This document shows, in pieces, positions 12,643-31,436 of a DNA stretch of 64,000 nt. Under the pieces are notes generated by a model, which searched no databases, had not been told where the DNA came from, and was given only the letters and a program-made list of their open reading frames with translations. Source of the stretch: Hanstruepera marina (GTDB lineage Bacteria; Bacteroidota; Bacteroidia; Flavobacteriales; Flavobacteriaceae); contig NZ_JAINVX010000004.1 of assembly GCF_019880635.1 (NCBI RefSeq), forward strand, positions 1-64,000. The letters run 5' to 3'. The translations under genes and the position numbers were made by a program. The stretch's first letter is position 1; every line of letters begins with the position of its first letter.

Positions 12643-13482
12643 ATGAGTGTAGCAAACTGGAAAACTGCTAAAGAATATGAAGACATTACCTATAAAAAAT
12701 GTAATGGTGTAGCGCGTATTGCATTTAATAGACCAAATGTTAGAAATGCCTTTAGACCCAAAACCACAAGTGAATTATATGATGCTTTTTATGATGCTAA
12801 TGAAGATACTAGTATAGGTGTCGTTTTGTTGTCTGCTGAAGGTCCTTCAACCAAAGATGGTATTTGGAGTTTTTGTTCTGGTGGTGACCAAAAGGCGAGA
12901 GGCCATCAAGGATATGTAGGAGACGACGGTTATCACAGGTTAAATATTTTGGAAGTACAACGATTAATTCGGTTTATGCCAAAAGCTGTTATTGCAGTTG
13001 TTCCAGGTTGGGCCGTTGGTGGTGGCCACAGTTTGCATGTTGTGTGCGATTTAACGCTAGCTAGTAAAGAACATGCCATTTTTAAGCAAACCGATGCCGA
13101 TGTAACCAGTTTTGATGGCGGTTATGGTTCTGCCTATTTAGCCAAAATGGTCGGGCAAAAAAAAGCGCGTGAAATTTTCTTTTTAGGAAGAAATTATTCA
13201 GCACAAGAAGCTTTTGAAATGGGTATGGTAAATGCCGTAATTCCTCATGATGAACTTGAGAGTACAGCTTATGAATGGGCTCAAGAAATCTTGGCTAAAT
13301 CACCAACTTCAATTAAAATGTTGAAATTTGCCATGAATCTAACTGATGATGGTATGGTTGGTCAGCAAGTATTTGCTGGTGAAGCTACTCGGTTAGCCTA
13401 CATGACAGATGAAGCTAAAGAAGGTCGTGATGCCTTTTTGGAAAAACGTAAACCAAACTTTCCTAAAAAGTGGATTCCTTAA
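12643..13482 (+). CDS. menB: 1,4-dihydroxy-2-naphthoyl-CoA synthase
   Basis: 279 residues of the crotonase fold. It carries IAFNRPNVRNAFRPKT, WSFCSGGDQKARG (oxyanion loop), VVPGWAVGGGHSLHVVCDLTLAS and FKQTDADVTSFDGGYGSAYLA, all diagnostic of MenB. Residue ~151 is Asp in QTDAD. By established work on the family, Asp here marks type II MenB, which supplies its own carboxylate, whereas type I enzymes have Gly (QTGP) and use bicarbonate. It cyclises O-succinylbenzoyl-CoA. menA follows 9 bp downstream. Confidence 0.96.
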   Translation: MSVANWKTAKEYEDITYKKCNGVARIAFNRPNVRNAFRPKTTSELYDAFYDANEDTSIGVVLLSAEGPSTKDGIWSFCSGGDQKARGHQGYVGDDGYHRLNILEVQRLIRFMPKAVIAVVPGWAVGGGHSLHVVCDLTLASKEHAIFKQTDADVTSFDGGYGSAYLAKMVGQKKAREIFFLGRNYSAQEAFEMGMVNAVIPHDELESTAYEWAQEILAKSPTSIKMLKFAMNLTDDGMVGQQVFAGEATRLAYMTDEAKEGRDAFLEKRKPNFPKKWIP

Positions 13483-13491
13483 ATTGGTTAT

Positions 13492-14394
13492 ATGAGTAAT
13501 ATAAAACATTGGGTTGAAGCTGCTCGATTACGGACCTTACCTTTATCGGTTTCTGGAATTATTTTAGCAGGTTGTTTTGCAGAATACAATGGCTTTTTTA
13601 AATGGTCAGTTTTTTTATTGGCTATATTAACAACTATTGCTTTACAAGTGCTTTCCAATTTTGCCAATGATTATGGTGATGGCGTAAAAGGTACTGATAA
13701 TAATCAGCGTGTTGGACCAGAACGTGCGATACAAAGCGGTAAGCTGACACCAAATCAAATGTTACGGGCTATAAGGGCAAATATTCTAATTATAATTGCC
13801 CTAGTTTTTCTTATGCTATTAGCTGCATTTGGTGTTCGATACATTCTGTATACTATTATTTTCTTTGTCCTAGCTGCCATATCTATTTATGCCTCAATTA
13901 AGTACACCATAGGTGATAATGCTTATGGCTATAGAGGGTTAGGTGATTTGTTTGTTTTTGTTTTTTTTGGACTTGTTAGTGTTATTGGGTGCTATTTCTT
14001 ATTTGCACGACAAATAGATCATTTGGTATTTCTACCTGCATGTGCTATTGGATTGTTAAGCGTTGCCGTTTTGAATTTAAATAACATGCGAGATATTGAT
14101 TCTGATAGAGAAACAAACAAAAATACTTTGGTAGTTAAAATGGGACTACAGAAAGCCAAAATATATCATTTTGTTTTGGTAATTGGAGCCCTGTTTTTAA
14201 CAGCATTGTTTGCTTTGCTTTATTATTGGTCTCCTTTTAATGTAATTTTTCTAGTTGTTTTTATTCCGTTAATAAAACATTTAAAACGCGTAAAAAATAC
14301 CAATCAAGCTAAAGAATTTGATCCTGAACTTAAGATTGTTGCATTATCTACGTTTGCTTTATCTGTATTGCTTGGCGTTGGTTATTTGTTGTAA
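13492..14394 (+). CDS. menA: 1,4-dihydroxy-2-naphthoate polyprenyltransferase
   Basis: A 300-residue UbiA-family integral membrane prenyltransferase with about eight or nine hydrophobic helices. The first Asp-rich motif is NFANDYGDGVKGTDNNQRVGPERAIQ (N-D-x-x-D type) and the second is LNNMRDIDSDRETNKNTLVVKMG. It attaches the polyprenyl chain to DHNA, giving demethylmenaquinone. Co-transcribed with menB (9-bp gap). The final methyltransferase (MenG/UbiE) is not in the window. Confidence 0.95.
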   Translation: MSNIKHWVEAARLRTLPLSVSGIILAGCFAEYNGFFKWSVFLLAILTTIALQVLSNFANDYGDGVKGTDNNQRVGPERAIQSGKLTPNQMLRAIRANILIIIALVFLMLLAAFGVRYILYTIIFFVLAAISIYASIKYTIGDNAYGYRGLGDLFVFVFFGLVSVIGCYFLFARQIDHLVFLPACAIGLLSVAVLNLNNMRDIDSDRETNKNTLVVKMGLQKAKIYHFVLVIGALFLTALFALLYYWSPFNVIFLVVFIPLIKHLKRVKNTNQAKEFDPELKIVALSTFALSVLLGVGYLL

Positions 14395-14516
14395 TTGCAA
14401 TAGTCAATAACTTTTACAATTAATTTGATTTTCAACAAACTATTGATTAACTTTATTAGGTTAATGCAAGTTGTTGACAAAATGAAGCTATTACAGTTTC
14501 AAAACAGGGATTGAAG

Positions 14517-14559
14517 ACTCAAGTAGTTTTTATAAAATTACTTGAGTTTTTATATTTTT
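14517..14559 (+). terminator. Terminator of the menB-menA unit
   Basis: Nine-bp stem ACTCAAGTA / TACTTGAGT with a 13-nt loop, followed by TTTTATATTTTT. The rest of the 184-bp gap between menA and the next gene shows nothing else recognisable. Confidence 0.65.
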
Positions 14560-14578
14560 AAGTTTAAAACATATTCTC

Positions 14579-15256
14579 ATGAAAATTACATTTTACGGCC
14601 ACGCGAGTTTAGGAATCACAATTAACGATGTAAATATTTTAGTAGATCCGTTTATTTCTGCTAATGAAAAGGCTTCTCATATTAATATTGATACATTGGA
14701 TGCTGATTATATTTTATTGACACATGCGCATCAAGATCATATTTTGGATGTTGAAGTAATTGCCAAACGAACCAATGCCGTAATTATTTCTAATTATGAA
14801 ATTGTATCACATTTCCAAAATAAGGGGCTTGAAGGTCACCCTATGAACCATGGTGGTTCTTGGGATTTTGAATTTGGAATGGTTAAATATGTGAATGCCA
14901 TACATACATCTTCGTTTCCAGATGGAAGTTATGGTGGACAGCCAGGAGGTTTTGTAATCGAAGGCGAACATAAAAACATATATATAGCAGGCGATACTGC
15001 TTTAACTATGGATATGAAGCTTATTCCTATGCAGACCAAGTTAGATTTAGCCATTCTGCCAATTGGTGATAATTTTACAATGGGAATTGACGATGCTATT
15101 TTAGCGAGTGATTTTGTTGAATGTGATAAAGTTCTAGGATACCATTTTGATACGTTTGGATATATTGAAATTAATCATGAAGAGGCCAAACGAAAATTCT
15201 TCGATAAGGATAAAGACTTGATGCTTCTTGATATTGGGGAAAGTTTAGAACTTTAA
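14579..15256 (+). CDS. Metal-dependent hydrolase, UPF0173/YtkL-type metallo-beta-lactamase fold
   Basis: 225 residues matching the short MBL-fold UPF0173 family. Metal ligands are visible in LLTHAHQDHILD (HxHxDH), in the Asp of IYIAGDTALT, and probably in the His of VLGYHFDTFG. There is no signal peptide, so it should be cytosolic. The substrate is unknown. The start MKITFYGHASLGI matches the usual family N-terminus. It lies 10 bp upstream of an SRPBCC gene, probably in one operon. Confidence 0.9.
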   Translation: MKITFYGHASLGITINDVNILVDPFISANEKASHINIDTLDADYILLTHAHQDHILDVEVIAKRTNAVIISNYEIVSHFQNKGLEGHPMNHGGSWDFEFGMVKYVNAIHTSSFPDGSYGGQPGGFVIEGEHKNIYIAGDTALTMDMKLIPMQTKLDLAILPIGDNFTMGIDDAILASDFVECDKVLGYHFDTFGYIEINHEEAKRKFFDKDKDLMLLDIGESLEL

Positions 15257-15266
15257 TTCTGCAACT

Positions 15267-15707
15267 ATGAAATTTACCTGTACTATTGAAATCCTTAAAC
15301 CTAAATCTATAGTGGCAGAGTTATTTGGCGACCCTAAATACCTAAAAGAATACCAAGATACTTTTATAAGCAAGGAGTTGTTGTCTGGTAAAGTAGGAGA
15401 AGATGGTGCTATTTCCAAAATGTTATACAAAATGGGTAAAGGTGAAATGGAATTAACCGAGACTATTATTGAAAATAAATTACCAGATTCCTTTTATGCT
15501 GAATACCACCATAAGCATATGGACAATACTATGTTATGCACCTTTGAAGCTTTGAATGAAAATACCACGAGATATAATTCCGAAATTCATTATACAGTTT
15601 TTAGAGGTTTTGTGCCAAAACTTATGGCTTTTCTATTTCCAGGAATGTTTAAAAAACAGGTCGATAAATGGTTGGTAAATTTTAAGAACTTTGTGGAAAG
15701 CAACTAA
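15267..15707 (+). CDS. SRPBCC (START/Bet v1-like) family protein
   Basis: 146 residues with the general SRPBCC pattern: an N-terminal strand (FTCTIEILKPKSIVAELFGDPKYLKEYQ), several beta strands with charged edges (ETIIENKLPDSFYAEYHHK) and a long C-terminal helix (KQVDKWLVNFKNFVES). The fold makes a hydrophobic cavity for small lipophilic ligands. No catalytic residues can be named. Probably co-transcribed with the MBL protein. Convergent with the LytTR gene, 11 bp away. Confidence 0.75.
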   Translation: MKFTCTIEILKPKSIVAELFGDPKYLKEYQDTFISKELLSGKVGEDGAISKMLYKMGKGEMELTETIIENKLPDSFYAEYHHKHMDNTMLCTFEALNENTTRYNSEIHYTVFRGFVPKLMAFLFPGMFKKQVDKWLVNFKNFVESN

Positions 15708-15718
15708 TAAGCTATATG

Positions 15719-16453
15719 TTATCGATAAAACCAATCTTTAGCTTCAGTTTTCTTACGCCTTGAAATAGGTAACTCAAAACCATTTTTTAATATAAAAGCA
15801 TCATGACTAATTGCTTTAATATAGCGTTTGTTGACTAAATATGATCGGTGACATCTAAAAAAGGCTTTATCTTTCAGAATTTCTTCAAAATAAGCCAAGT
15901 TTTTTGAAGACAGTTCTTTTTTGCCATTAACTATATGAATATAGCTGTAATTACGTTCACTTTCAATATATATAATTTGCTTAAGAGCAATACGAAAGGT
16001 TCCTTGCTGTGTGGGTAAAATTAATTTTTGATCATCGACAGACTTTGCTTTCAAGTTCGATAAAGCTGTTTTTATTTCCTCGGTTTTATCTTTAGAATTC
16101 CCTAATCGCTTAACAGCTTCTTTTAATTCTTCTTCATTAACGGGTTTAACCAAATAATCTAATGCATTAAATCTAAAAGCTTTAATGGCATAATGGCTGT
16201 GCGCTGTAGTAAAAATGGTTTTAAAATTAATTTCAGGCAATTTGTTTAGTAATTCAAAACCTGTCATATCTGGCAATTCAATATCCAGGAAGACTACATT
16301 GGGCTTGGTGGCAACAATCATTTCAAGCGCTTTTTTACCTGAATTTGCAACACTTAAAACCGAAATTTCTTTGCTATGCAACTGTAACAAATCTTGTAGC
16401 ACAGCTGCCATGAATGCATTATCTTCTACTATTAAAGCCTTGAATGTTTTCAT
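15719..16453 (-). CDS. LytTR-family DNA-binding response regulator
   Basis: 244 residues from ATG 16453 (MKTFKALIVEDN); an in-frame TTG 21 nt upstream is less likely. The receiver domain (about 1-120) has acidic residues at 10-11, phospho-acceptor Asp57 (VVFLDIELPDMTG), Thr/Ser in FTTAHSHYAIKAF and Lys in LVKPVNEEEL. The C-terminal LytTR domain (about 145-244) has IIYIESERNYSYIHI, FFRCHRSYLVNKRYI and LPISRRKKTEA. LytTR proteins bind pairs of ~10-bp direct repeats about 21 bp apart. It is transcribed divergently from the phosphorelay genes and is a natural output for them. It is also a candidate regulator of the repeats found at 24.7-29.2 kb. Confidence 0.92.
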   Translation of the reverse strand: MKTFKALIVEDNAFMAAVLQDLLQLHSKEISVLSVANSGKKALEMIVATKPNVVFLDIELPDMTGFELLNKLPEINFKTIFTTAHSHYAIKAFRFNALDYLVKPVNEEELKEAVKRLGNSKDKTEEIKTALSNLKAKSVDDQKLILPTQQGTFRIALKQIIYIESERNYSYIHIVNGKKELSSKNLAYFEEILKDKAFFRCHRSYLVNKRYIKAISHDAFILKNGFELPISRRKKTEAKDWFYR

Positions 16454-16573
16454 CTTACAAGTGAATATACACAAATATTTTCTACCGTTTGATAATTGAG
16501 ATGACCTTCAGATAATTCACATTTATATTTATATGAATTCTAATAGTATCTTGATGATATAAATACAGAACAA

Positions 16574-19204
16574 ATGTTTAAAATTAAATCTTTATTACTC
16601 TTTTTGCTTTTAGTAAGCCTGTCTTCTATTTCTTTTTCCCAAGAAAAAAATAAGGATTCTTTGTTTGCTGTTTGGAGCAATACAGGTAACCCAGCCAAAG
16701 AGCGTGTGAAGGCCTATTATCACAGATTTTATCCATTACAACAAGAGACGGCAATACCTGAAGTAATACGTTGGGCAGAAGGAAGCGAACAGCTACCAGA
16801 AATGGCCATACAAGCAGGACTAACAGACTATTTGCCCTTTCTTAAATTACTGGCATACGGAAAATACTTTTTGCTAAACGATTTTGAGACAGCTTGCCCA
16901 ATTGCTAAAGAAGCATTTTATATGGCTTTGGAATATAAGGATTATGAAACGCTACTTCTTACTTACGATATTATATATAGAGTTTGTTATGAACAAGGTA
17001 TTGGGACTACAACTAAAGACATAGAGGCATTTGAAAATATACTCTTTGACGTACATCAAAAAATGACCGATTCTGAATGGAAAATAAAGCTTTCACAATC
17101 GTTGGCACTTAAATTCTTTAGGAAAAGTAAGTATTCGCAGGCGTTACCATTGTATCAAACAATAGTATACTACTATGAAACCCAAAAAACACAAGACTTC
17201 ACCTATGGAAGAGCTTTAAGTGATATTGGTGCTATACACCAAGACTTGCAAAATTTTGAAGAAACAAAGGAATACTATCATAGAGCTAAAAGGGTTTTTG
17301 ATGATTTAAATGATGAAAAAAGTAAAATGGGTATAGACATGAGCCTTGCCCAAACGTTTGCTTTAGAAAAAAACAGGGATAGTGCCCAAATCTATATAGA
17401 CAATGTATTTAAGTATTATGCCAATGTTCCGGAGTGCGAGCCCTGTTTAGGACGTGCTTATGTAATAGAGGCACAGATTATGAATTTAAAAAACAATTAC
17501 GCCCAGGTATTAGAACGCTTATTACCTTTAGATCCTAGATTTGATGATACGGTTAAAACCTCTAGTCATAAATTTGTGGAAGCCTATTATTTCACACTAG
17601 CTGAAGCCTATTTTGGTTTAGGGCAATACCAAAAAGCTATTCAATCTGCAAAACTCGGAATTAACTATAAAGAAAAACGCAATATTTCATTCCGATTACG
17701 TAATTACGATGTACTGTTTAGGGCTCAAGAAGCTACTAGACAGTACAAAAATGCGCTAACAACATATACACACTATAATAAATTGAACGATTCTGTGGCG
17801 CAACTACGTAACAGTCAAGAAGTATTGCGTAAGGAATTGGGCTTTCAATTTGAAAAACAACGTTTGGCAGACAGTTTGAGTTTGGAACAAAAACGCCTTG
17901 AAAGTGAATTGAGTTTACAATCAGAAATTAGTGAGCAGAAAGCCACCAAAAACATCTTGATTGGTTTGGGGATTTTGGCAGCTCTTTTAGTTTTTGGGTT
18001 GTATTACCGCTTAAAACATATTAGAAAAACACAAAAGATAATTCAGAAAGAAAAAGAAAAAGCCCAAGCTTCAGAGCGCGCCAAACATCAGTTTTTGGCC
18101 AATATGAGCCACGAGATTCGTACACCAATGAATGCCATAAAAGGCATGACAGATATCTTGTTACGGCGTAAACCCAGAAAAGACCAAACCGAGTATTTAG
18201 ATGGTATTAAGCAATCATCAGATTCTTTATTAGTTATAATCAATGATATTCTTGATATTTCAAAAATTGAAGCTGGTAAGATTGAGTTAGAGCATGAACC
18301 ATTTTCTGTAAGTGAACTGATTAATAATGTGCAGACTATTATGCACTTTAAAGCCGAGGAAAAAGGGCTTCAGCTAAAAAAGAAATTACCTTCAGAAGAA
18401 ATTACTGTAAAAGGTGATGCCACACGCTTAAAGCAAATACTCATCAATCTAATAGGCAATGCCATTAAGTTTACCGTAAAAGGCATGGTGACTACAACTG
18501 TAAATCCCAAAGAAGAAAACGGTAAATTAAATCTGCACTTTACGGTTTCCGATACAGGCATTGGGATTGATCAAGACCGTATAGATAAAATTTTTAAATC
18601 CTTTGAGCAAGCCTACAGTGATACTACGAGAAAATTTGGCGGTACAGGTTTGGGTTTGAGTATTTCCAAAAAGTTGGTAGAACTGCACAATGGCAAGATT
18701 TGGGTAGAAAGCGAAAAAGGAAAAGGCAGTGTATTTCATTTTACTATACCCTATGAAATTTCGGAAGTTGGGGAACAAGCCACTAAACCAACTGCATCTG
18801 AAAGCAATATTGCAAGGCAATTGAAAGGTATTAAAGTATTATTGGTAGAAGACAATCAATTTAATGCTGTAGTGGCTCAAGAAGAACTAGAAGATGCTAT
18901 AGAAAGTGTTGAAGTTGAAGTTGCCGAAAATGGTGCTATTGCAGTGGATAAAGTAAAATCTTCAGACTATGATGCCATCCTTATGGATGTACAAATGCCT
19001 ATAATGAACGGTTACGAAGCCACAAAAACCATAAGAAATTTTAAAAATGGAAAAGCAAAAACACCAATCATTGCTATGACGGCTAATGTCCTCAAAGATG
19101 AAGTAGATAAATGCTATGAAGCAGGCATGGATGACTTTATAGGAAAGCCGTTTGACACGGATGAATTACTTCAAAAGATATATAAACTCACAAAAACTAA
19201 TTAA
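16574..19204 (+). CDS. TPR-containing hybrid sensor histidine kinase
   Basis: 876 residues: signal peptide (MFKIKSLLLFLLLVSLSSISFSQ), a periplasmic TPR region (about 25-420), a coiled-coil stretch (LSLEQKRLESELSLQSE) and one transmembrane helix near 470-485 (ILIGLGILAALLVFGLYY). Next comes HisKA with phosphorylated His ~513 (MSHEIRTPMNAIKG), then HATPase_c (NLIGNAIKFT N-box, DTGIGI, GTGLGLSISKKL), then a C-terminal receiver (LLVEDNQFNAV, Asp ~805 in MDVQMPIMNG, IAMTANV). It senses an envelope signal through TPRs and feeds a multistep phosphorelay with the next two genes. Confidence 0.95.
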   Translation: MFKIKSLLLFLLLVSLSSISFSQEKNKDSLFAVWSNTGNPAKERVKAYYHRFYPLQQETAIPEVIRWAEGSEQLPEMAIQAGLTDYLPFLKLLAYGKYFLLNDFETACPIAKEAFYMALEYKDYETLLLTYDIIYRVCYEQGIGTTTKDIEAFENILFDVHQKMTDSEWKIKLSQSLALKFFRKSKYSQALPLYQTIVYYYETQKTQDFTYGRALSDIGAIHQDLQNFEETKEYYHRAKRVFDDLNDEKSKMGIDMSLAQTFALEKNRDSAQIYIDNVFKYYANVPECEPCLGRAYVIEAQIMNLKNNYAQVLERLLPLDPRFDDTVKTSSHKFVEAYYFTLAEAYFGLGQYQKAIQSAKLGINYKEKRNISFRLRNYDVLFRAQEATRQYKNALTTYTHYNKLNDSVAQLRNSQEVLRKELGFQFEKQRLADSLSLEQKRLESELSLQSEISEQKATKNILIGLGILAALLVFGLYYRLKHIRKTQKIIQKEKEKAQASERAKHQFLANMSHEIRTPMNAIKGMTDILLRRKPRKDQTEYLDGIKQSSDSLLVIINDILDISKIEAGKIELEHEPFSVSELINNVQTIMHFKAEEKGLQLKKKLPSEEITVKGDATRLKQILINLIGNAIKFTVKGMVTTTVNPKEENGKLNLHFTVSDTGIGIDQDRIDKIFKSFEQAYSDTTRKFGGTGLGLSISKKLVELHNGKIWVESEKGKGSVFHFTIPYEISEVGEQATKPTASESNIARQLKGIKVLLVEDNQFNAVVAQEELEDAIESVEVEVAENGAIAVDKVKSSDYDAILMDVQMPIMNGYEATKTIRNFKNGKAKTPIIAMTANVLKDEVDKCYEAGMDDFIGKPFDTDELLQKIYKLTKTN

Positions 19205-24691: not shown

Positions 24692-24743
24692 TTTACGCAT
24701 TAAAAAAGCATCTTTACGCATTGAAATGATGCTTTAACTCATT
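24692..24743 (+). promoter_or_regulatory. Three 10-bp direct repeats at 21-bp intervals (LytTR-like sites)
   Basis: TTTACGCATT (24692-24701), TTTACGCATT (24713-24722) and TTAACTCATT (24734-24743) begin exactly 21 bp apart, two DNA turns. The last copy ends 27 bp before a -7 box TATCTTTA (24771-24778). Related copies precede the genes at 26658 and 29226. The geometry fits LytTR-family activators. Confidence 0.7.
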
Positions 24744-24770
24744 GTTATTATTTCCAGTATGTCTTTTTCG

Positions 24771-24778
24771 TATCTTTA
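24771..24778 (+). promoter_or_regulatory. -7 box of the plug-TPR-DUF2135 gene
   Basis: TATCTTTA, a TAnnTTTA variant of the Bacteroidota -7 box, 70 bp before the ATG at 24849. No good -33 TTG lies at the usual spacing, as expected for an activator-dependent promoter. Confidence 0.5.
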
Positions 24779-24848
24779 TAGTACAAGAAACAATCAAAAA
24801 AACTCTTGTTATTGTTGAACTAACTGTTTAATTAAAAACTAAAAGAAA

Positions 24849-26501
24849 ATGAAAAATTTACTACTATTATTGTCAATTGTTTTGATAATCCCGGCATCTT
24901 GGGCTCAAGAGAAAGAAGAACAAAAAGAAAAACAAATTACAGGTATTGTTTACGCAACTGGTAATAAACCATTTCCAGGTGTAGATATTGCCAAAATTGG
25001 TAATTATCCATCTGTTAAAACAGATGAGAATGGTGAATATACCATTTTAGCAAAAGCTACAGATACATTGGTATTTACTTATGAAGGCTATTATCCTAGT
25101 TTAGCACTAGTATCTAATAATAGTGCTATTGCGGTTTATTTACAAGAAGAGTTATCACAAAAAAGAACCAAAGCTATTGAAGGCGCTTTGGGCATGAAGA
25201 AGGATCCTTTGTCTATTACCTATTCAGAGGATGTTGTAGAACAAACCGAACTTTTAAGGGGTCGTAATCCAAATACTATAGAGGCTTTAAATGGCAAGGT
25301 TAGTGGACTAACAGTGCGTTATGATGGAGCTGGAAACCCGAATTCGATTAATATTCGTGGGAATAGAACCATAAGAGGTGGTAATGATGCGCTTATTGTT
25401 ATTGATGGGGTAATATCAAACTACCAAGTCTTATCTACTTTAGATAACAACATAATTGAATCTATAACGGTTAATAAAGGTGCTAGTGGAGCTGCATTAT
25501 ATGGAAGTCAAGGGTCAAATGGTGTGATTTTGGTTAAAACCAAAAAATCTGCTAAATCTAAATCACAACTTAACTCTCAGGCTTATAATGATGAAACCGT
25601 ACCGAGATATAGCAAACGGCTTAAAGTAAATTATAAGGAAAGCACACCAAATTATATTGAAGACTTAGCATCAGTTGAAGACGCCTATTCTCAATACCAA
25701 GCCAATAAAAATAACTTTTGGGGACACTCGGCATATTTTGTAGACATGTATGAGTATTTTAATGAAAATGGGAAAAGCGCTTACAGTCAACAAGTATTTG
25801 ACGACGTAATTAATTCAGATAAAGCAGATTATGCAACATTACGATCTTTAGCATATTATTTAGAGAGTGAAGGTAATTTTGTTCATGCCAATATTGCTTA
25901 TAACAAAGTACTCAACTTTAAATCTGATGATGCTAAATCGTATAGACATATGGCGTTAATAAATCAGGAATTAGGCAAAAATCAAATTGCATTTAATACA
26001 CTTAATGTTGTTGTAGATAATGATTACATGTACAATCAAGGTATATATAATGCTTCAAAAATCAAAAATATTGCTTTGCATGAGTTAAATAATTTATTGC
26101 AAACAGATACAGCCGTAAATACTGAAGAGCTTATTGGTGTAAACGAAATTAACACGACTTTCGATTTAAGAATTGTTGTAGATGCCAATAGAGACGATGT
26201 TAATTTGAACATCAAAGTTGTAGAACCATATCTTGAAATTTCATCTGCAGAAAATGAAACTACAAGAATAGGCGGTGAAATGAATGTGCTAGAAGGGCTT
26301 TCTGAATACAGTTTAAGAAATGCTAGAAAAGGTTCTTATTATATTGTTGCAGATTATTCTCAAAATCCAGAAGAAGTTGTAACTTTTGTAAAAGTAACGG
26401 TTTACAAAAATTATGGTAAACCTAATGCTACAAAAGAGGTTAAAATGATTAGACTGACCAATAATAAAAAGGAACAAATAATAGAAGAAATAAAGTTTTA
26501 A
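24849..26501 (+). CDS. Secreted CarboxypepD_reg-like/TonB plug protein without a barrel, with TPR and DUF2135-like C-terminus
   Basis: 550 residues. Signal peptide (MKNLLLLLSIVLIIPASWAQ). CarboxypepD_reg-like domain about 28-105 (KPFPGVDIAKI, DENGEYTILA). SusC-type plug about 120-235 (NTIEALNGKVSGLTVRY, NIRGNRTIRGGNDALIVIDG, GASGAALYGSQGSNGVILVKT). No beta-barrel follows. Instead there is a TPR-like helical region about 290-400 and a C-terminal beta domain about 430-525 (LRIVVDANRDDVNLNIKVVEP...GGEMN...RKGSYYIVADYS) that resembles DUF2135, a domain commonly found with vWA/VIT proteins. It should be periplasmic or surface-associated rather than a transporter. The function is unknown. Confidence 0.75.
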   Translation: MKNLLLLLSIVLIIPASWAQEKEEQKEKQITGIVYATGNKPFPGVDIAKIGNYPSVKTDENGEYTILAKATDTLVFTYEGYYPSLALVSNNSAIAVYLQEELSQKRTKAIEGALGMKKDPLSITYSEDVVEQTELLRGRNPNTIEALNGKVSGLTVRYDGAGNPNSINIRGNRTIRGGNDALIVIDGVISNYQVLSTLDNNIIESITVNKGASGAALYGSQGSNGVILVKTKKSAKSKSQLNSQAYNDETVPRYSKRLKVNYKESTPNYIEDLASVEDAYSQYQANKNNFWGHSAYFVDMYEYFNENGKSAYSQQVFDDVINSDKADYATLRSLAYYLESEGNFVHANIAYNKVLNFKSDDAKSYRHMALINQELGKNQIAFNTLNVVVDNDYMYNQGIYNASKIKNIALHELNNLLQTDTAVNTEELIGVNEINTTFDLRIVVDANRDDVNLNIKVVEPYLEISSAENETTRIGGEMNVLEGLSEYSLRNARKGSYYIVADYSQNPEEVVTFVKVTVYKNYGKPNATKEVKMIRLTNNKKEQIIEEIKF

Positions 26502-26528
26502 TTACTTTATATACACGTTTTTAAAGCT

Positions 26529-26562
26529 AAAAAGGTTAAACAATTGTTTAACCTTTTTTTTA
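26529..26562 (+). terminator. Terminator after the plug-TPR gene
   Basis: Near-palindromic stem AAAGGTTAAACA / TGTTTAACCTTT followed by T7. It ends the transcript of the gene at 24849, so the next gene needs its own promoter. Confidence 0.85.
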
Positions 26563-26567
26563 AATAA

Positions 26568-26598
26568 TTGCCTCAACCAATGCATGACTTTACTCATT
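26568..26598 (+). promoter_or_regulatory. LytTR-like repeat pair upstream of the degenerate vWA gene
   Basis: TTTACTCATT (26589-26598) is a full match to the element found upstream of the two neighbouring plug genes. Exactly 21 bp earlier is TTGCCTCAAC (26568-26577), which keeps only 6 of 10 bases including the CTCA core. A -7 box TAGGTTTA (26627-26634) follows the last copy by 28 bp. Confidence 0.55.
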
Positions 26599-26657
26599 TC
26601 AGGTTTTTTTCAATATAGTTTTGTTATAGGTTTATTATAAACTTAAAACAAAATACT

Positions 26658-27305
26658 ATGAGAACACTAATCACTATTTCACTGGTTTTATTTGTAATAC
26701 ATACCAGTTTATCACAGGAAAAACCAATTGAAACAAAATCAGTATTGCTAGATGATTTTGTATCATTTATAGCAGAAAACTATTCATTAACATATAATGC
26801 AGAAGAAGAAGAAGTAGAGGGTGGAGAGGAGGTTAAATCGAAGAACATTACTTTTTTAATTGAGACATCAAAACGAAACCCGTCTCAAGAAGATATAATT
26901 TCACTAAAACAAGCCTTTAGGTTTCTATCTAAACGCCTATCAGAAAGCGATAATATTTCAATTGTTGCCTATTCAGGTATGAATGGGTTGGTGCTTGCCA
27001 AAACAACTCCAAAAAGCATTAAAACAGTATTGAATGCATTAGATGATATTAAAGCACAAATAGATAAAAAATGTGATGATGGTATTGCTTATGCTTATGA
27101 GTATGCCAATAAAATCCATGACGATTTAGCAGAAAATTATGTTGTAATGGTTCGTAATCCAAACCCCAATTTGAGAAGCTATAAGTCGGTAAGTTCAACT
27201 TCAAATTTTACAGAGGAAGAGCCAAATTCTAAAAAAAATGGAGGCGCAATTATCTTGACTGCTATAACTCTGTTGCCAGAAATTATTGCTGTAATAAAAG
27301 ATTGA
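26658..27305 (+). CDS. Secreted degenerate vWA-domain protein (MIDAS lost)
   Basis: 215 residues. Signal peptide (MRTLITISLVLFVIHTSLSQE), an acidic linker (EEEEVEGGEEV), then a vWA-like fold about 70-165. It aligns with the vWA domain of the protein at 29226: ITFLIETSKRNPSQED against LTFLIDVSGSMSSANK, then ISIVAYSG against VSIVVYAG. The metal-site residues are changed: DxSxS is ETSKR, the Thr loop is IDKKCD, and the ATDGD motif is VRNPN. A C-terminal hydrophobic helix (GGAIILTAITLLPEIIAVIKD) may anchor it. Probably a non-metal-binding partner or decoy of the neighbouring vWA protein; that role is inferred. Confidence 0.65.
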   Translation: MRTLITISLVLFVIHTSLSQEKPIETKSVLLDDFVSFIAENYSLTYNAEEEEVEGGEEVKSKNITFLIETSKRNPSQEDIISLKQAFRFLSKRLSESDNISIVAYSGMNGLVLAKTTPKSIKTVLNALDDIKAQIDKKCDDGIAYAYEYANKIHDDLAENYVVMVRNPNPNLRSYKSVSSTSNFTEEEPNSKKNGGAIILTAITLLPEIIAVIKD

Positions 27306-27334
27306 TTAACTAAAAAAATCAATACCATAATATG

Positions 27335-27342
27335 TATATTTG
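27335..27342 (+). promoter_or_regulatory. -7 box for the formiminotransferase-cyclodeaminase gene
   Basis: TATATTTG matches TAnnTTTG and lies 41 bp before the ATG at 27384. It suggests this gene is transcribed independently of the vWA genes around it. Confidence 0.5.
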
Positions 27343-27383
27343 AGGCCAATAATTATTAATCTTTTATATAAATATTTAATAGA

Positions 27384-29078
27384 ATGCAAAAGCAACTTAT
27401 TGAGTGCGTACCAAACATTAGTGAAGGTCGAGATATTAATAAAATAAATGAAATTGCACATATTGTAGAAACAGTTGAAGGTGTTAAATTACTTGATATA
27501 GATCCAGGTGCAGCAACCAATAGAACAGTTATTACGTTTGTTGGTGAGCCACAACAAGTTATAGATGCCGCTTTCCTATTAATAAAAAAGGCTTCGCAAT
27601 TGATAGATATGAGTAAGCATTCTGGTGAACACCCTCGATTTGGAGCTACCGATGTTTGCCCATTGGTTCCAATATCTGGAATTACATTAGAAGAAACAGC
27701 AAAGTATGCTCATAAATTGGGAGAGCGTGTAGGACAGGAGTTGGATATTCCTGTTTATTTATATGAAAAAGCAGCGCAGGAAGACAAGAGAAAAAACCTA
27801 GCCAATTGTAGAGCTGGAGAATACGAAGGATTGCCAAAAAAATTGTCTGACCCTATTTGGAAGCCCGATTTTGGACCTGCTGAATTTAATAGTAAGGTTG
27901 CAAAAACTGGAGCGACAGCCATTTCTGCTCGTGACTTTTTGGTGGCCTATAACGTAAATTTAAACACGACTTCAACCAGACGCGCAAATGCTATAGCTTT
28001 TGATATTCGCGAGGCTGGTCGTGTTAAGCGTGAGGGTAATCCCATAACGGGTAAAAAAGTTTTAGATGAAAATGGAGAGCCTGTTAGAATACCAGGAAAG
28101 TTGAAAGCTGTAAAAGGTATTGGATGGTTTATTGAAGAATATGGTATTGCTCAAATATCTTATAACCTAACAAATATTAGTATCACATCAATGCATGAAG
28201 CTTTTGATGAATCTTGTAAAGCAGCTGAATCTAGAGGAATTCGCGTTACAGGGTCAGAGCTTATAGGTTTAATTCCTTTAAAAGCTATGCTGGATGCCGC
28301 AGATTATTTTCTTGTTAAACAACAACGTTCTTTAGGAATTGCGGAATCCGAAAAAATTAAAATTGCCGTTAAGTCTCTGGGATTAGACGATTTAAAGCCA
28401 TTTAACCCTGAAGAAAAAATTATTGAATATGTTTTAAAGAACAAGGATTCTAAACAGCTAATAGACTTAACCCTTACTGATTTTGCCGATGAAACTGCAG
28501 GAGAGTCCATGGCTCCAGGTGGAGGTTCTATATCGGCGTATGTAGGTACGTTAGGTGTATCATTGGGGACTATGGTTGCTAACTTATCAGCACATAAGCC
28601 TGGATGGGATGACAGATGGAAAGAATTTTCAATCTGGGCAGAAAAAGGTCAAGGTTATAAAAATAAATTACTGGCTTTGGTAGATGAAGACACCAATGCG
28701 TTCAATAAAATTATAGAAGGTTTTAGAATGCCAAAATCTACTGAAAAAGAAAAAGCAGATAGAGCAGAGGCTATAGAACAAGCTACTATTTATGCAACAG
28801 AAGTACCATTGTTAGTTATGGAAACAGCATACCAATCTATGGAGGTTATGGATGCTATGGCCAAAATTGGCTTGCAAAATTCATTGTCTGATGCCGGAGT
28901 AGGTGCATTATGTGCTAGAACAGCTGTTTATGGCGCTTATTTTAATGTGAGAATTAATGCCAAGGACATAAAGAACAGAGAAACAGCCGAAACACTTTTG
29001 GATAAAGCCAAATCAATATTTGATAAAACACTTTCTCTAGAATCTGAAATAATAGATTACATCAACGAGAAGATATAA
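27384..29078 (+). CDS. ftcD: Glutamate formimidoyltransferase / formimidoyltetrahydrofolate cyclodeaminase (bifunctional)
   Basis: 564 residues. The N-terminal formiminotransferase part (about 1-320) begins LIECVPNISEGRD and contains HSGEHPRFGATDVCPLVP and AISARDFLVAYNVNL. The C-terminal cyclodeaminase part (about 355-560) has LTDFADETAGESMAPGGGSISAYVG and a four-helix-type body. The fused enzyme moves the formimino group of N-formimino-glutamate to tetrahydrofolate and deaminates it, the last step of one histidine degradation route. The hutI gene lies 13 kb away; hutH and hutU are not in the window. It sits between vWA genes but has its own promoter and terminator. Confidence 0.94.
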   Translation: MQKQLIECVPNISEGRDINKINEIAHIVETVEGVKLLDIDPGAATNRTVITFVGEPQQVIDAAFLLIKKASQLIDMSKHSGEHPRFGATDVCPLVPISGITLEETAKYAHKLGERVGQELDIPVYLYEKAAQEDKRKNLANCRAGEYEGLPKKLSDPIWKPDFGPAEFNSKVAKTGATAISARDFLVAYNVNLNTTSTRRANAIAFDIREAGRVKREGNPITGKKVLDENGEPVRIPGKLKAVKGIGWFIEEYGIAQISYNLTNISITSMHEAFDESCKAAESRGIRVTGSELIGLIPLKAMLDAADYFLVKQQRSLGIAESEKIKIAVKSLGLDDLKPFNPEEKIIEYVLKNKDSKQLIDLTLTDFADETAGESMAPGGGSISAYVGTLGVSLGTMVANLSAHKPGWDDRWKEFSIWAEKGQGYKNKLLALVDEDTNAFNKIIEGFRMPKSTEKEKADRAEAIEQATIYATEVPLLVMETAYQSMEVMDAMAKIGLQNSLSDAGVGALCARTAVYGAYFNVRINAKDIKNRETAETLLDKAKSIFDKTLSLESEIIDYINEKI

Positions 29079-29101
29079 AAAATAAGTACTCATTATTGAT
29101 T

Positions 29102-29131
29102 AAAGGCTAAACTTTTGTTTGGCCTTTTTTT
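29102..29131 (+). terminator. Terminator of ftcD
   Basis: Stem AAAGGCTAAAC / GTTTGGCCTTT (one G-T pair) with TTTT loop, followed by a T-run. Confidence 0.8.
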
Positions 29132-29135
29132 ATTG

Positions 29136-29166
29136 TTAACTCATTCAAATTACAGCTTCACTCATT
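29136..29166 (+). promoter_or_regulatory. LytTR-like direct repeat pair upstream of the plug-vWA gene
   Basis: TTAACTCATT (29136-29145) and TTCACTCATT (29157-29166) start exactly 21 bp apart. A -7 box TAGTTTTA (29195-29202) begins 28 bp after the second copy, as at the genes at 24849 and 26658. Confidence 0.7.
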
Positions 29167-29225
29167 GCTTATTTTAAAAAAGGAGTGTCAATGATAGTTT
29201 TACAGTGAATTTAAAACATGTAATC

Positions 29226-31436
29226 ATGAAAACGATAACACTAGCCTTATTTGTAATGTTGTTTAGCATGCAAATCTTTTCACAAGAAAAAACTATATCT
29301 GGAACGATTTCAGATGAAAACGGATTGCCATTACCTGGAGTCAACATCATTATTAAAAGTACTACCAATGGTACACAAACCGATTTTGAAGGTAATTATG
29401 AAATTAAAGCCAATGTTGGGGATGTATTAAGCTATTCATTTTTAGGATATAAAACGGTAGAAAAAACTGTTGGAGTAGCTAGTAATATAAGTTTTGCTAT
29501 GGTTGTAGATTCTGATGCTTTAGAGGAAGTTGTAGTTACAGCATTAGGTATACAGCGGAAACCTTCTAATTTAGCGTTTTCGAGCCATTCTGTAAAGATG
29601 AATTCAAATACCTCTAATTATAGTAGAGGTTATAGCAAAAGGAGTAACCGAAAATCAAAAAATAAAAATAGCTATCCAAATATCGCTCAAAGTTTATCAG
29701 GTAAAGTATCTGGTTTACAAATTAACTCAACTAATAGAGGAATTAATCAATCAACCCGTATTCAATTACGCGGGTCAAGAGCGATAACTCAAAATAATCA
29801 AGCTCTAATAGTTATTGACGGTAAAATAGCAACGTCAGAAGAATTGGCCAATTTAAACCCGAAAAAAATAAAAGATGTCAATGTAGTTAAAGGCGCCAAT
29901 GGAGCTGCCTTATACGGAAGTCAAGGTGCTAATGGAGCTATTATAGTACAGACGAAATCTGGTAAATGGAAAATGCCTAAAGAATTAAAAAAGGTAATTA
30001 ATTCACAGAAAACAAGTCTGGTTGTTAATCAAGAATATGATACTGAAGAATATGAGGAAATTGAAGAAAATCAGTTTGAAAATGTTCGTGTAAGCCCATT
30101 GTCAACATTCTCAATAGATGTCGATAAAGCGTCCTACAGTAACATTAGACGCATGATAAATAATGGGCAACCTATACCGCCAAATGCTGTTAAAATTGAA
30201 GAAATGATTAATTATTTTAAGTATGACTATCCACAACCAACAAATGACCATCCTTTTTCCATTAATACCGAATTAGTAGTGACACCGTGGAATAAGGAAA
30301 CACAATTGGTTAGAATTGGACTACAGGGAAAAACCTATTCAAATGAAGAATTACCAGCATCAAATTTAACCTTTTTGATTGATGTTTCTGGTTCAATGAG
30401 TTCGGCTAACAAATTACCACTTTTAAAATCAGCATTTAAGTTATTGGTAAATCAATTGCGAGAGCAAGATCATGTGTCTATAGTAGTTTATGCAGGTGCG
30501 GCAGGAGTTGTTTTAAAACCAACTTCTGGTAGTAATAAAGATAAAATTATTGCAGCTTTAGATAAGTTGCAATCAGGTGGTTCGACAGCAGGAGGAGCTG
30601 GGATTAATTTAGCCTATAAATTAGCAGAAGCTAATTTTAAAAAGAACGGAAATAATAGAGTAATCCTTGCTACTGATGGTGATTTCAATGTTGGCGCGTC
30701 AAGTGATAAAGCCATGCAAGAATTAATTGAAGAAAAACGTAAATCTGGTGTATTTCTATCTGTTTTAGGGTTTGGTTATGGCAATTATAAAGATTCAAAA
30801 TTAGAAACTTTGGCAGATAAAGGTAATGGCAATCATGCTTATATTGATACCATGCAAGAAGCACAAAAGGTATTTGGTAAGGAATTTGGCGGAACTTTAT
30901 ACACTATTGCTAAAGATGTAAAACTTCAAATTGAATTTAATCCTACAAAAGTTGAAGCATACAGATTGATTGGTTATGAAAACAGATTGTTGGCTGATGA
31001 AGATTTTGTAGACGATACCAAAGATGCAGGTGAGTTAGGAAGTGGTCATACTGTAACGGCGTTATATGAAGTTATTCCAGTTGATACTAAAAGTGATTAT
31101 TTAAAATCAATACCAGATTTAAAGTATACTAAAACTCAAATTTCAGCTGACTATGAAGATGAATTGTTTACGGTTAAATTTAGATACAAAGAGCCAGATG
31201 GTAATAAAAGCATTGAAATGGTTCATGTTCAAACCGATAAGGTTAGTAAAGCTTCAGTAGATATGTACTTTGCGTCAGCGGTGGCCTTGTTTGGTATGCA
31301 ATTAAGGAATTCTGAATTTTGCAATTCAACAAATTATTCTACTGTGCTAGAACTGGCTGAAAAGGGAAGAGGTAATGATTCTAGTGGTTATAGATCGGAA
31401 TTTATACGTTTGGTATCTTCATACAATAACTTATAA
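29226..31436 (+). CDS. Secreted plug-vWA fusion protein (CarboxypepD_reg, TonB plug, vWA, DUF3520; YfbK-like)
   Basis: 736 residues from ATG 29226; an upstream in-frame GTG at 29205 is less likely. Signal peptide (MKTITLALFVMLFSMQIFSQ). CarboxypepD_reg domain about 22-95 (SGTISDENGLPLPGVNIIIK). SusC-like plug about 100-250 (SLSGKVSGLQI, IQLRGSRAITQNNQALIVIDG, GAALYGSQGANGAIIVQTK). Then the N-terminal vWF_A segment (STFSIDVDKASYSNIRRMI), a vWA domain about 380-550 with intact MIDAS (DVSGS at ~386, GGSTAG, ATDGDFN), and a C-terminal DUF3520-like domain (TALYEVIP). The vWA half resembles E. coli YfbK. No barrel is present, so it is not a transporter. It is probably a metal-dependent adhesion or assembly factor in the envelope. 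Confidence 0.85.
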   Translation: MKTITLALFVMLFSMQIFSQEKTISGTISDENGLPLPGVNIIIKSTTNGTQTDFEGNYEIKANVGDVLSYSFLGYKTVEKTVGVASNISFAMVVDSDALEEVVVTALGIQRKPSNLAFSSHSVKMNSNTSNYSRGYSKRSNRKSKNKNSYPNIAQSLSGKVSGLQINSTNRGINQSTRIQLRGSRAITQNNQALIVIDGKIATSEELANLNPKKIKDVNVVKGANGAALYGSQGANGAIIVQTKSGKWKMPKELKKVINSQKTSLVVNQEYDTEEYEEIEENQFENVRVSPLSTFSIDVDKASYSNIRRMINNGQPIPPNAVKIEEMINYFKYDYPQPTNDHPFSINTELVVTPWNKETQLVRIGLQGKTYSNEELPASNLTFLIDVSGSMSSANKLPLLKSAFKLLVNQLREQDHVSIVVYAGAAGVVLKPTSGSNKDKIIAALDKLQSGGSTAGGAGINLAYKLAEANFKKNGNNRVILATDGDFNVGASSDKAMQELIEEKRKSGVFLSVLGFGYGNYKDSKLETLADKGNGNHAYIDTMQEAQKVFGKEFGGTLYTIAKDVKLQIEFNPTKVEAYRLIGYENRLLADEDFVDDTKDAGELGSGHTVTALYEVIPVDTKSDYLKSIPDLKYTKTQISADYEDELFTVKFRYKEPDGNKSIEMVHVQTDKVSKASVDMYFASAVALFGMQLRNSEFCNSTNYSTVLELAEKGRGNDSSGYRSEFIRLVSSYNNL

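Follow-up and report, generated by a model that had tools for sequence, protein, structure and literature searches.

Phased direct repeats upstream of vWA and Plug genes in Hanstruepera marina are probable operators of a conserved Flavobacteriaceae LytTR regulon

In the 64,000-nucleotide stretch of the Hanstruepera marina genome analysed here (the window), three genes for predicted exported proteins, called 24849, 26658 and 29226 after their first positions, are each preceded by 10-bp direct repeats whose copies start 21 bp apart, just upstream of a candidate TAnnTTTR promoter box (Table 1). The repeats stand at a rigid distance from this box, are conserved upstream of orthologous genes, and are linked to and co-occur with a LytTR response regulator whose gene lies elsewhere in the same genome, on contig C8. 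Very probably they serve as operators in a LytTR two-component regulon that is conserved in the Flavobacteriaceae and that would switch on genes for vWA and Plug proteins through the C8 regulator and its kinase. An earlier note on this DNA had taken direct repeats spaced by two helical turns and placed right before the promoter as the mark of a LytTR-type regulon, and the comparisons below point the same way.

Results

The element at the three loci and in the H. marina genome

All the repeat copies quoted in the earlier note are present where it had placed them, and the last copy is indeed separated from the TAnnTTTA box by 27, 28 and 28 bp for genes 24849, 26658 and 29226. The exact tandem pattern TTNACNCATT-N11-TTNACNCATT has three occurrences in the 3,282,034-base genome, at 24692, 24713 and 29136, all at the reported sites, which speaks for more than chance. 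The reversed pattern, exact and in tandem, has no occurrence in the whole genome; it is a poor control, since the half-site is almost the same when read backwards. The exact half-site followed by N28 and TAnnTTTR matches the genome at two places only, which are the two 28-bp cases (genes 26658 and 29226).

On both strands of the window, no tandem reading with fewer than 4 mismatches of 18 was found beyond the three exact sites and the pair starting at 26568, which has 3. Because a pair with 1 mismatch precedes the same gene, encoding a protein of 215 amino acids (aa), at five of its seven other loci (the remaining two have 4 and 6), the copy at 26568, described previously as weak, is best read as a decayed real copy. 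The remark that the intervening ftcD gene lacks the element also holds: no tandem reading with 4 or fewer mismatches of 18 lies between 26568 and 29136. As to the separate termination of the genes stated in that note, a hairpin with a T-run follows gene 24849, and another follows ftcD (by eye).

The three products had been assigned to one secreted family. This is broadly right: the 24849 product has CarboxypepD_reg and Plug parts, and that of 29226 has both of these and vWA/YfbK. The 26658 product is without a Pfam match but aligns with the vWA part of 29226 at 31% identity over 119 residues. A structure search with its model (predicted local distance difference test 64, moderate) returned no fold match at E 0.001 or better; inter-alpha-inhibitor heavy chain 1 and the vWA domain of CMG2 lead the weak matches (best E 1.5e-3).

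With up to 3 mismatches allowed, the genome has 126 matches to the tandem pattern, hardly more than the 101 to its reversed control, so weaker sites stay candidates. One further site, on C8, is convincing, and three others are candidates (Table 1): the H. marina set is larger than the three genes of the supposed regulon. Three looser matches (L010, L012 and L016) were set aside as not promoter-like, being at a coding start, inside an open reading frame (ORF) or with no gene near. Single half-sites were rejected as a search tool (half-site plus GTTTT with 1 mismatch: 12 places, against 11 for the reversed control), as was the half-site-N28-box pattern with 2 mismatches (263 against 249).

Table 1 Features of the three loci and further sites in the H. 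marina genome (coordinates are those of the window unless a contig is given).
Feature	Coordinates	Strand	Remarks
Repeat copy 1 upstream of gene 24849, TTTACGCATT	24692-24701	+	Located in sequence
Repeat copy 2 upstream of gene 24849, TTTACGCATT	24713-24722	+	21 bp after copy 1
Repeat copy 3 (proximal) upstream of gene 24849, TTAACTCATT	24734-24743	+	
Candidate -7 box TATCTTTA	24771-24778	+	27 bp past copy 3; read from sequence
Gene 24849	24849-26501	+	550-aa CarboxypepD_reg and TonB Plug protein, predicted exported (N-terminus, by eye)
Distal copy upstream of gene 26658, TTGCCTCAAC	26568-26577	+	Decayed
Proximal copy upstream of gene 26658, TTTACTCATT	26589-26598	+	
Candidate -7 box TAGGTTTA	26627-26634	+	28 bp past proximal copy
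Gene 26658	26658-27305	+	215-aa vWA-like protein, predicted exported, no Pfam match
ftcD	27384-29078	+	Formiminotransferase-cyclodeaminase; no element upstream
Distal copy upstream of gene 29226, TTAACTCATT	29136-29145	+	
Proximal copy upstream of gene 29226, TTCACTCATT	29157-29166	+	
Candidate -7 box TAGTTTTA	29195-29202	+	28 bp past proximal copy
Gene 29226	29226-31436	+	736-aa CarboxypepD_reg, Plug and vWA/YfbK protein, predicted exported
LytTR response regulator	15719-16453	-	Named in the earlier note; judged not to be the regulator
Convincing further site	C8:225679-225730	-	Three phased copies, 1 mismatch per pair
Candidate regulator	C8:228545-229276		Receiver and LytTR domains
Candidate site	C8:208295-208325		2 mismatches, box at +38; before DUF6705 gene
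Candidate site	C4:1308048-1308078		2 mismatches; before gene for 266-aa CarboxypepD protein
Candidate site	C5:302627-302657		3 mismatches, box at +38

A fixed promoter geometry across the family

The exact element is present in three of the five genomes of the genus and in 43 of 299 genomes of the family, at 52 sites (reversed pattern: 4 matches). Among the matches listed, the genera that bear it include Winogradskyella, Polaribacter, Tenacibaculum and Algibacter. We scanned named genomes with a pattern stricter than that of the earlier note (TTHACTCATT), which returned at least 123 occurrences in at least 117 stretches, 16 of them inside ORFs. Of the 123 listed occurrences, 44 were dropped because they were inside an ORF or because no ORF of 120 aa began with an ATG at a distance of 60-180 bp; this left 79 promoter-like sites.

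At 51 of these 79 listed sites a TAnnTTTR box starts exactly 38 or 59 bp past the start of the second matched copy; 500 shuffles averaged 0.5 such sites and never exceeded 3. A distance of 59 bp (38 + 21) is as expected where three copies are present and the first two were those matched. The box is at 38, 59 or 60 in 19 of 28 loci from the family scan, a set that partly overlaps the 79 sites. At 43 of the 79, the first matched copy is 84-94 bp away from the ATG. Positions left free by the pattern are conserved as well: over 77 distinct listed sites, A predominates at positions 11-13 (74-78%) and T at 36-39 (68-84%), forming an AAA past copy one and, some 5 bp past copy two, a T-run. Judged from this geometry, the element is evidently part of the promoter and not a loose repeat. 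Its fixed position just upstream of a promoter is that of a LytTR regulon, and a 10-bp repeat with an 11-bp spacer fits the LytTR rule of 9-11 bp repeats with an 11-13 bp spacer.

The matches were expected to fall upstream of plug/vWA genes, and many do. The proteins encoded downstream of listed sites (n = 77, chance sites included; family counts overlap within proteins) contain VWA in 25 cases, CarbopepD_reg_2 in 24, Plug in 10, vWF_A in 7, DUF6146 in 5, SIMPL and Por_Secre_tail in 4 each, VIT and MG2 in 3 each and TonB_C in 2. Across the family, among the matches listed, the element thus precedes vWA, CarboxypepD/Plug, SIMPL, DUF6146, VIT and alpha-2-macroglobulin genes. It also stands upstream of a DUF6705 gene (L009:6067-6666) and, as one DUF6146 instance, of L018:1586-2023.

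Conservation upstream of orthologues

For this comparison orthologues were picked by protein alone, regardless of the element, and mismatches were counted out of 18. The element proved to be conserved upstream of orthologues of all three genes, as the earlier note had required. Among 30 plug/vWA loci of gene 29226 (its own included), 13 have the element with 3 or fewer mismatches, all of them 90-105 bp before the ATG, against 0/30 on the other strand and 0/30 in the best of 20 shuffles, which, here as for the kinase promoters below, preserve base content only. Three loci with doubtful gene starts (L255, L257 and L258) were counted as misses. The plug/vWA loci of five genomes in which the regulator described below is missing or present at paralogue level only (G006, G025, G034, G037 and G058) are all without the element. 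The 215-aa gene has it with 4 or fewer mismatches at 90-92 bp in seven of eight loci (its own included), five of these with 1 mismatch. Gene 24849, compared within the genus only, has it in all five genomes with 4 or fewer mismatches: exact in its own and in G001, which has all three copies, with 2 in G003 and with 4 in G002 and G004, whose upstream copies are degenerate with the third in phase by eye. At eight loci of plug paralogues, the best readings have 6-7 mismatches in all eight.

A linked LytTR response regulator and kinase

The H. marina genome has 17 LytTR matches. The convincing C8 site lies between the gene of a 384-aa vWA protein and a divergent operon encoding a kinase, a 175-aa protein and a receiver-LytTR protein, the candidate regulator of Table 1. 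The kinase has the Pfam domains CarboxypepD_reg, TPR, His_kinase (LytS-type) and HATPase_c. The 175-aa protein between the kinase and LytTR genes (L008:8278-8805) is without a Pfam match, and a blastp comparison with those of the at least 117 listed stretches that bear a LytTR gene returned no relative.

A LytTR-like protein (E < 1e-40) is encoded in 16 of the at least 117 listed element-bearing stretches; six weaker matches to the LytTR profile (E from 1e-8 to 1e-40), spread over four loci (L046, L047, L067 and L154), fall outside this count. For 14 of the 16, the best match in H. marina is the C8 protein (64-86% identity), and all 14 are divergent from the site; the other two (L143 and L091) match other H. 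marina proteins at 35-39%. Fifteen of the 52 family sites, each in a different genome, are located 2.3-3.1 kb (first coordinates) from an orthologue of the C8 LytTR protein, again all divergent. The orthologue is present in 39 of the 43 genomes that bear the element and in 112 of the remaining 256 (Fisher P 3e-9, computed ignoring shared ancestry), with nine genomes whose LytTR matches are weak (E 2e-65 to 9e-51) counted as lacking it.

We also analysed the kinase promoters of 40 of the 112 regulator-bearing genomes without the exact element, picked down the identity list and not at random. The element, directed away from the kinase gene, is present with 4 or fewer mismatches of 18 in 37 of the 40 and with 2 or fewer in 25; at these two thresholds one shuffle gave 1 and 0, and the opposite direction likewise 1 and 0. 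Its distances to the start of the kinase gene group around 95 and 116 bp; the 21-bp difference is what two or three copies in phase should give.

A regulator with receiver and LytTR domains and a LytS-type kinase (Pfam matches), as in a LytTR regulon, are linked to the element by gene order. The likely regulator is the C8 LytTR response regulator and not the protein encoded at 15719-16453, so that the earlier proposal appears right in the class of regulator and wrong in the protein.

Observations that weigh against this reading and alternative explanations

Several observations count against a regulon controlled by the C8 protein. A box within 1 bp of 38 or 59 is lacking at 26 of the 79 listed promoter-like sites. 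The element is absent at 3 or fewer mismatches from 17 of the 30 plug/vWA loci, 12 of them in regulator-bearing genomes (n = 25), although in one of those 12 (G092) the 215-aa gene about 20 bp upstream of the plug/vWA gene bears the element instead. In 112 genomes the regulator is present without the exact element, and the Fisher test takes no account of common descent. Conversely, G120, 96% complete, has a good site (L026, G120:C27:15927-15957) with a box at +38 and no orthologue at E <= 1e-50; G241 and G295, 82-84% complete, also bear the element without an orthologue, as does G157, whose site is inside an ORF. In the 40 kinase promoters, the reversed pattern on the same strand succeeds in 25 at 4 or fewer mismatches and in 5 at 2 or fewer, which we ascribe to the near-identity of the half-site when read backwards, shifted by one base. 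Finally, all that the half-site of the element has in common with known LytTR half-sites is an ACTnAT core (by eye).

Four other explanations were considered. The C8 protein could be the right regulator but a repressor, relieved by the signal. Sequence alone does not tell activation from repression; however, the copies lie upstream of the TAnnTTTR box at a fixed distance and not over it, the -33 region is mostly a T-run, and the repeats of AgrA, too, are situated upstream of promoters that are activated and have suboptimal -35/-10 spacing (PMC4227749). We regard repression as unlikely.

It is likewise quite improbable that an activator or repressor of another type binds the repeats, with the C8 two-component operon merely one of its targets. 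A kinase operon that is a conserved target would give like linkage and co-occurrence, and G120 has a site without a LytTR orthologue. Against this, LytTR sites typically consist of direct repeats of 9-11 nt separated by 11-13 nt (PMC4847170), and in a neighbour screen that covered the LytTR type it is a LytTR protein that is found linked to the listed sites time and again.

That the LytTR protein of 15719-16453 binds the repeats, as the earlier note had suggested, is very doubtful. It is of the right domain class and is encoded only about 9 kb from the repeats, but it shows neither co-occurrence nor linkage with the element: matches (E <= 1e-50) are found in 9 of 299 family genomes and in only two (G000 and G003) of the 43 that bear the element, it is the best H. 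marina match for none of the 16 listed LytTR neighbours (E < 1e-40), and at 13001-19000 the best tandem reading has 4 mismatches. This protein has one paralogue in the genome (C5:136593-137315, 53% identity) and few relatives in the family.

Dispersed or chance AT-rich repeats without function, which the near-parity of the 3-mismatch pattern and its reversed control in the genome might suggest, can be practically dismissed, being contradicted by the rigid promoter spacing, the orthologue conservation and the regulator linkage.

Discussion

Comparison with known LytTR systems

The comparisons in this section draw on selected passages of the papers cited. Almost all LytTR response regulators recognize a pair of repeats, direct or inverse, each 9-11 nt long and separated by 11-13 nt, without a common consensus (PMC4847170), and the repeat length, 11-bp spacer and placement found here agree with published LytTR sites (PMC4847170, PMC6193735, PMC4227749). 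The sites of E. coli YpdB are tandem GGCATTTCAT, bound by monomers (PMC4847170). Like that system, the present one would combine 10-bp direct repeats with a LytS-type kinase and a LytTR response regulator, but the sequence is another, YpdB has one target gene rather than a multi-gene set, and the kinase here carries CarboxypepD and TPR parts.

In LytTR regulatory systems (LRS), mostly Gram-positive, the repeats recur at intervals of about 21 bp and often contain an ACTTAT-like core (PMC6193735). The likeness lies in this mostly 21-bp period (for example ACCACTTAT-12 bp-ACCGCTTAT), in the place just upstream of the promoter, in the autoregulation of LRS and, by eye, in the ACTnAT core that our half-site has in common with sites of the ACCACTTAT type. 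An LRS, however, pairs a LytTR protein with a membrane protein and not a kinase with a receiver. On this point the candidate regulator departs from an LRS: it has Response_reg and LytTR domains, and its operon also encodes a His_kinase protein. The LRS-like repeat predicted for Bacteroides, TCCGGTATTCA-11bp-ACCGGAAATCA (PMC6193735), differs in sequence and is built of 11 bp + 11 bp.

At the P2 and P3 promoters of Staphylococcus aureus, two direct repeats are bound by the LytTR response regulator AgrA, and the promoter-proximal repeats are centred near -60 (PMC4227749). If the box occupies -12 to -5, its position in F. psychrophilum (PMC9723704), the copies here would extend from about -71 to -41, close to where the AgrA repeats lie. 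The two systems differ in sequence, phylum, promoter type and target genes.

Proposed mechanism

Binding, activation rather than repression, and the signal are what we infer from these features, as follows. Two or three TTYACTCATT copies in 21-bp phase would share one face of the DNA immediately before a TAnnTTTR promoter, which in most cases has a T-run as its -33 region. The C8 response regulator would be phosphorylated by the CarboxypepD_reg, TPR and LytS-type kinase of its own operon, bind one monomer per copy and recruit RNA polymerase, helping it at promoters with a poor -33 region. In H. marina this may turn on the exported vWA and CarboxypepD-Plug proteins 24849, 26658 and 29226 and the 384-aa vWA protein of C8, where the intergenic element common to the vWA gene and the kinase operon would permit autoregulation. 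The signal is probably the state of the envelope.

From the domains of the downstream proteins, our guess is a role in surface upkeep. A possible but rather doubtful elaboration is a surface-maintenance response, in which the kinase, through its own exported CarboxypepD and TPR parts, would sense the state of a surface apparatus of CarboxypepD/Plug, vWA, VIT, SIMPL and alpha-2-macroglobulin-like proteins that the one LytTR regulator replenishes: sensor and clients share domains, and a free sensor domain could report shortage of or damage to a client.

Novelty and significance

LytTR proteins are common in Bacteroidota, although to our knowledge the operator has been defined for few response-regulator regulons of this phylum.

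A literature search (titles, starts of abstracts and selected passages, with few subscription papers) returned no description of the site or the regulon. Closest to it are the LRS-like repeats of Bacteroides (PMC6193735) and the F. psychrophilum promoter map (PMC9723704), from whose main text 'LytT' and 'direct repeat' are absent. The claim that no such site had been described in Bacteroidota thus holds for this element in the literature searched, but a different LytTR repeat is in print for Bacteroides (PMC6193735).

Taken together, the data suggest that the switch belongs to a widespread, apparently undescribed control circuit. It yields a precise predicted operator, a particular regulator-kinase pair and a testable list of targets across many cultured genera, and it would join poorly understood vWA, Plug and DUF proteins in one predicted regulated set, offering a handle on their function.

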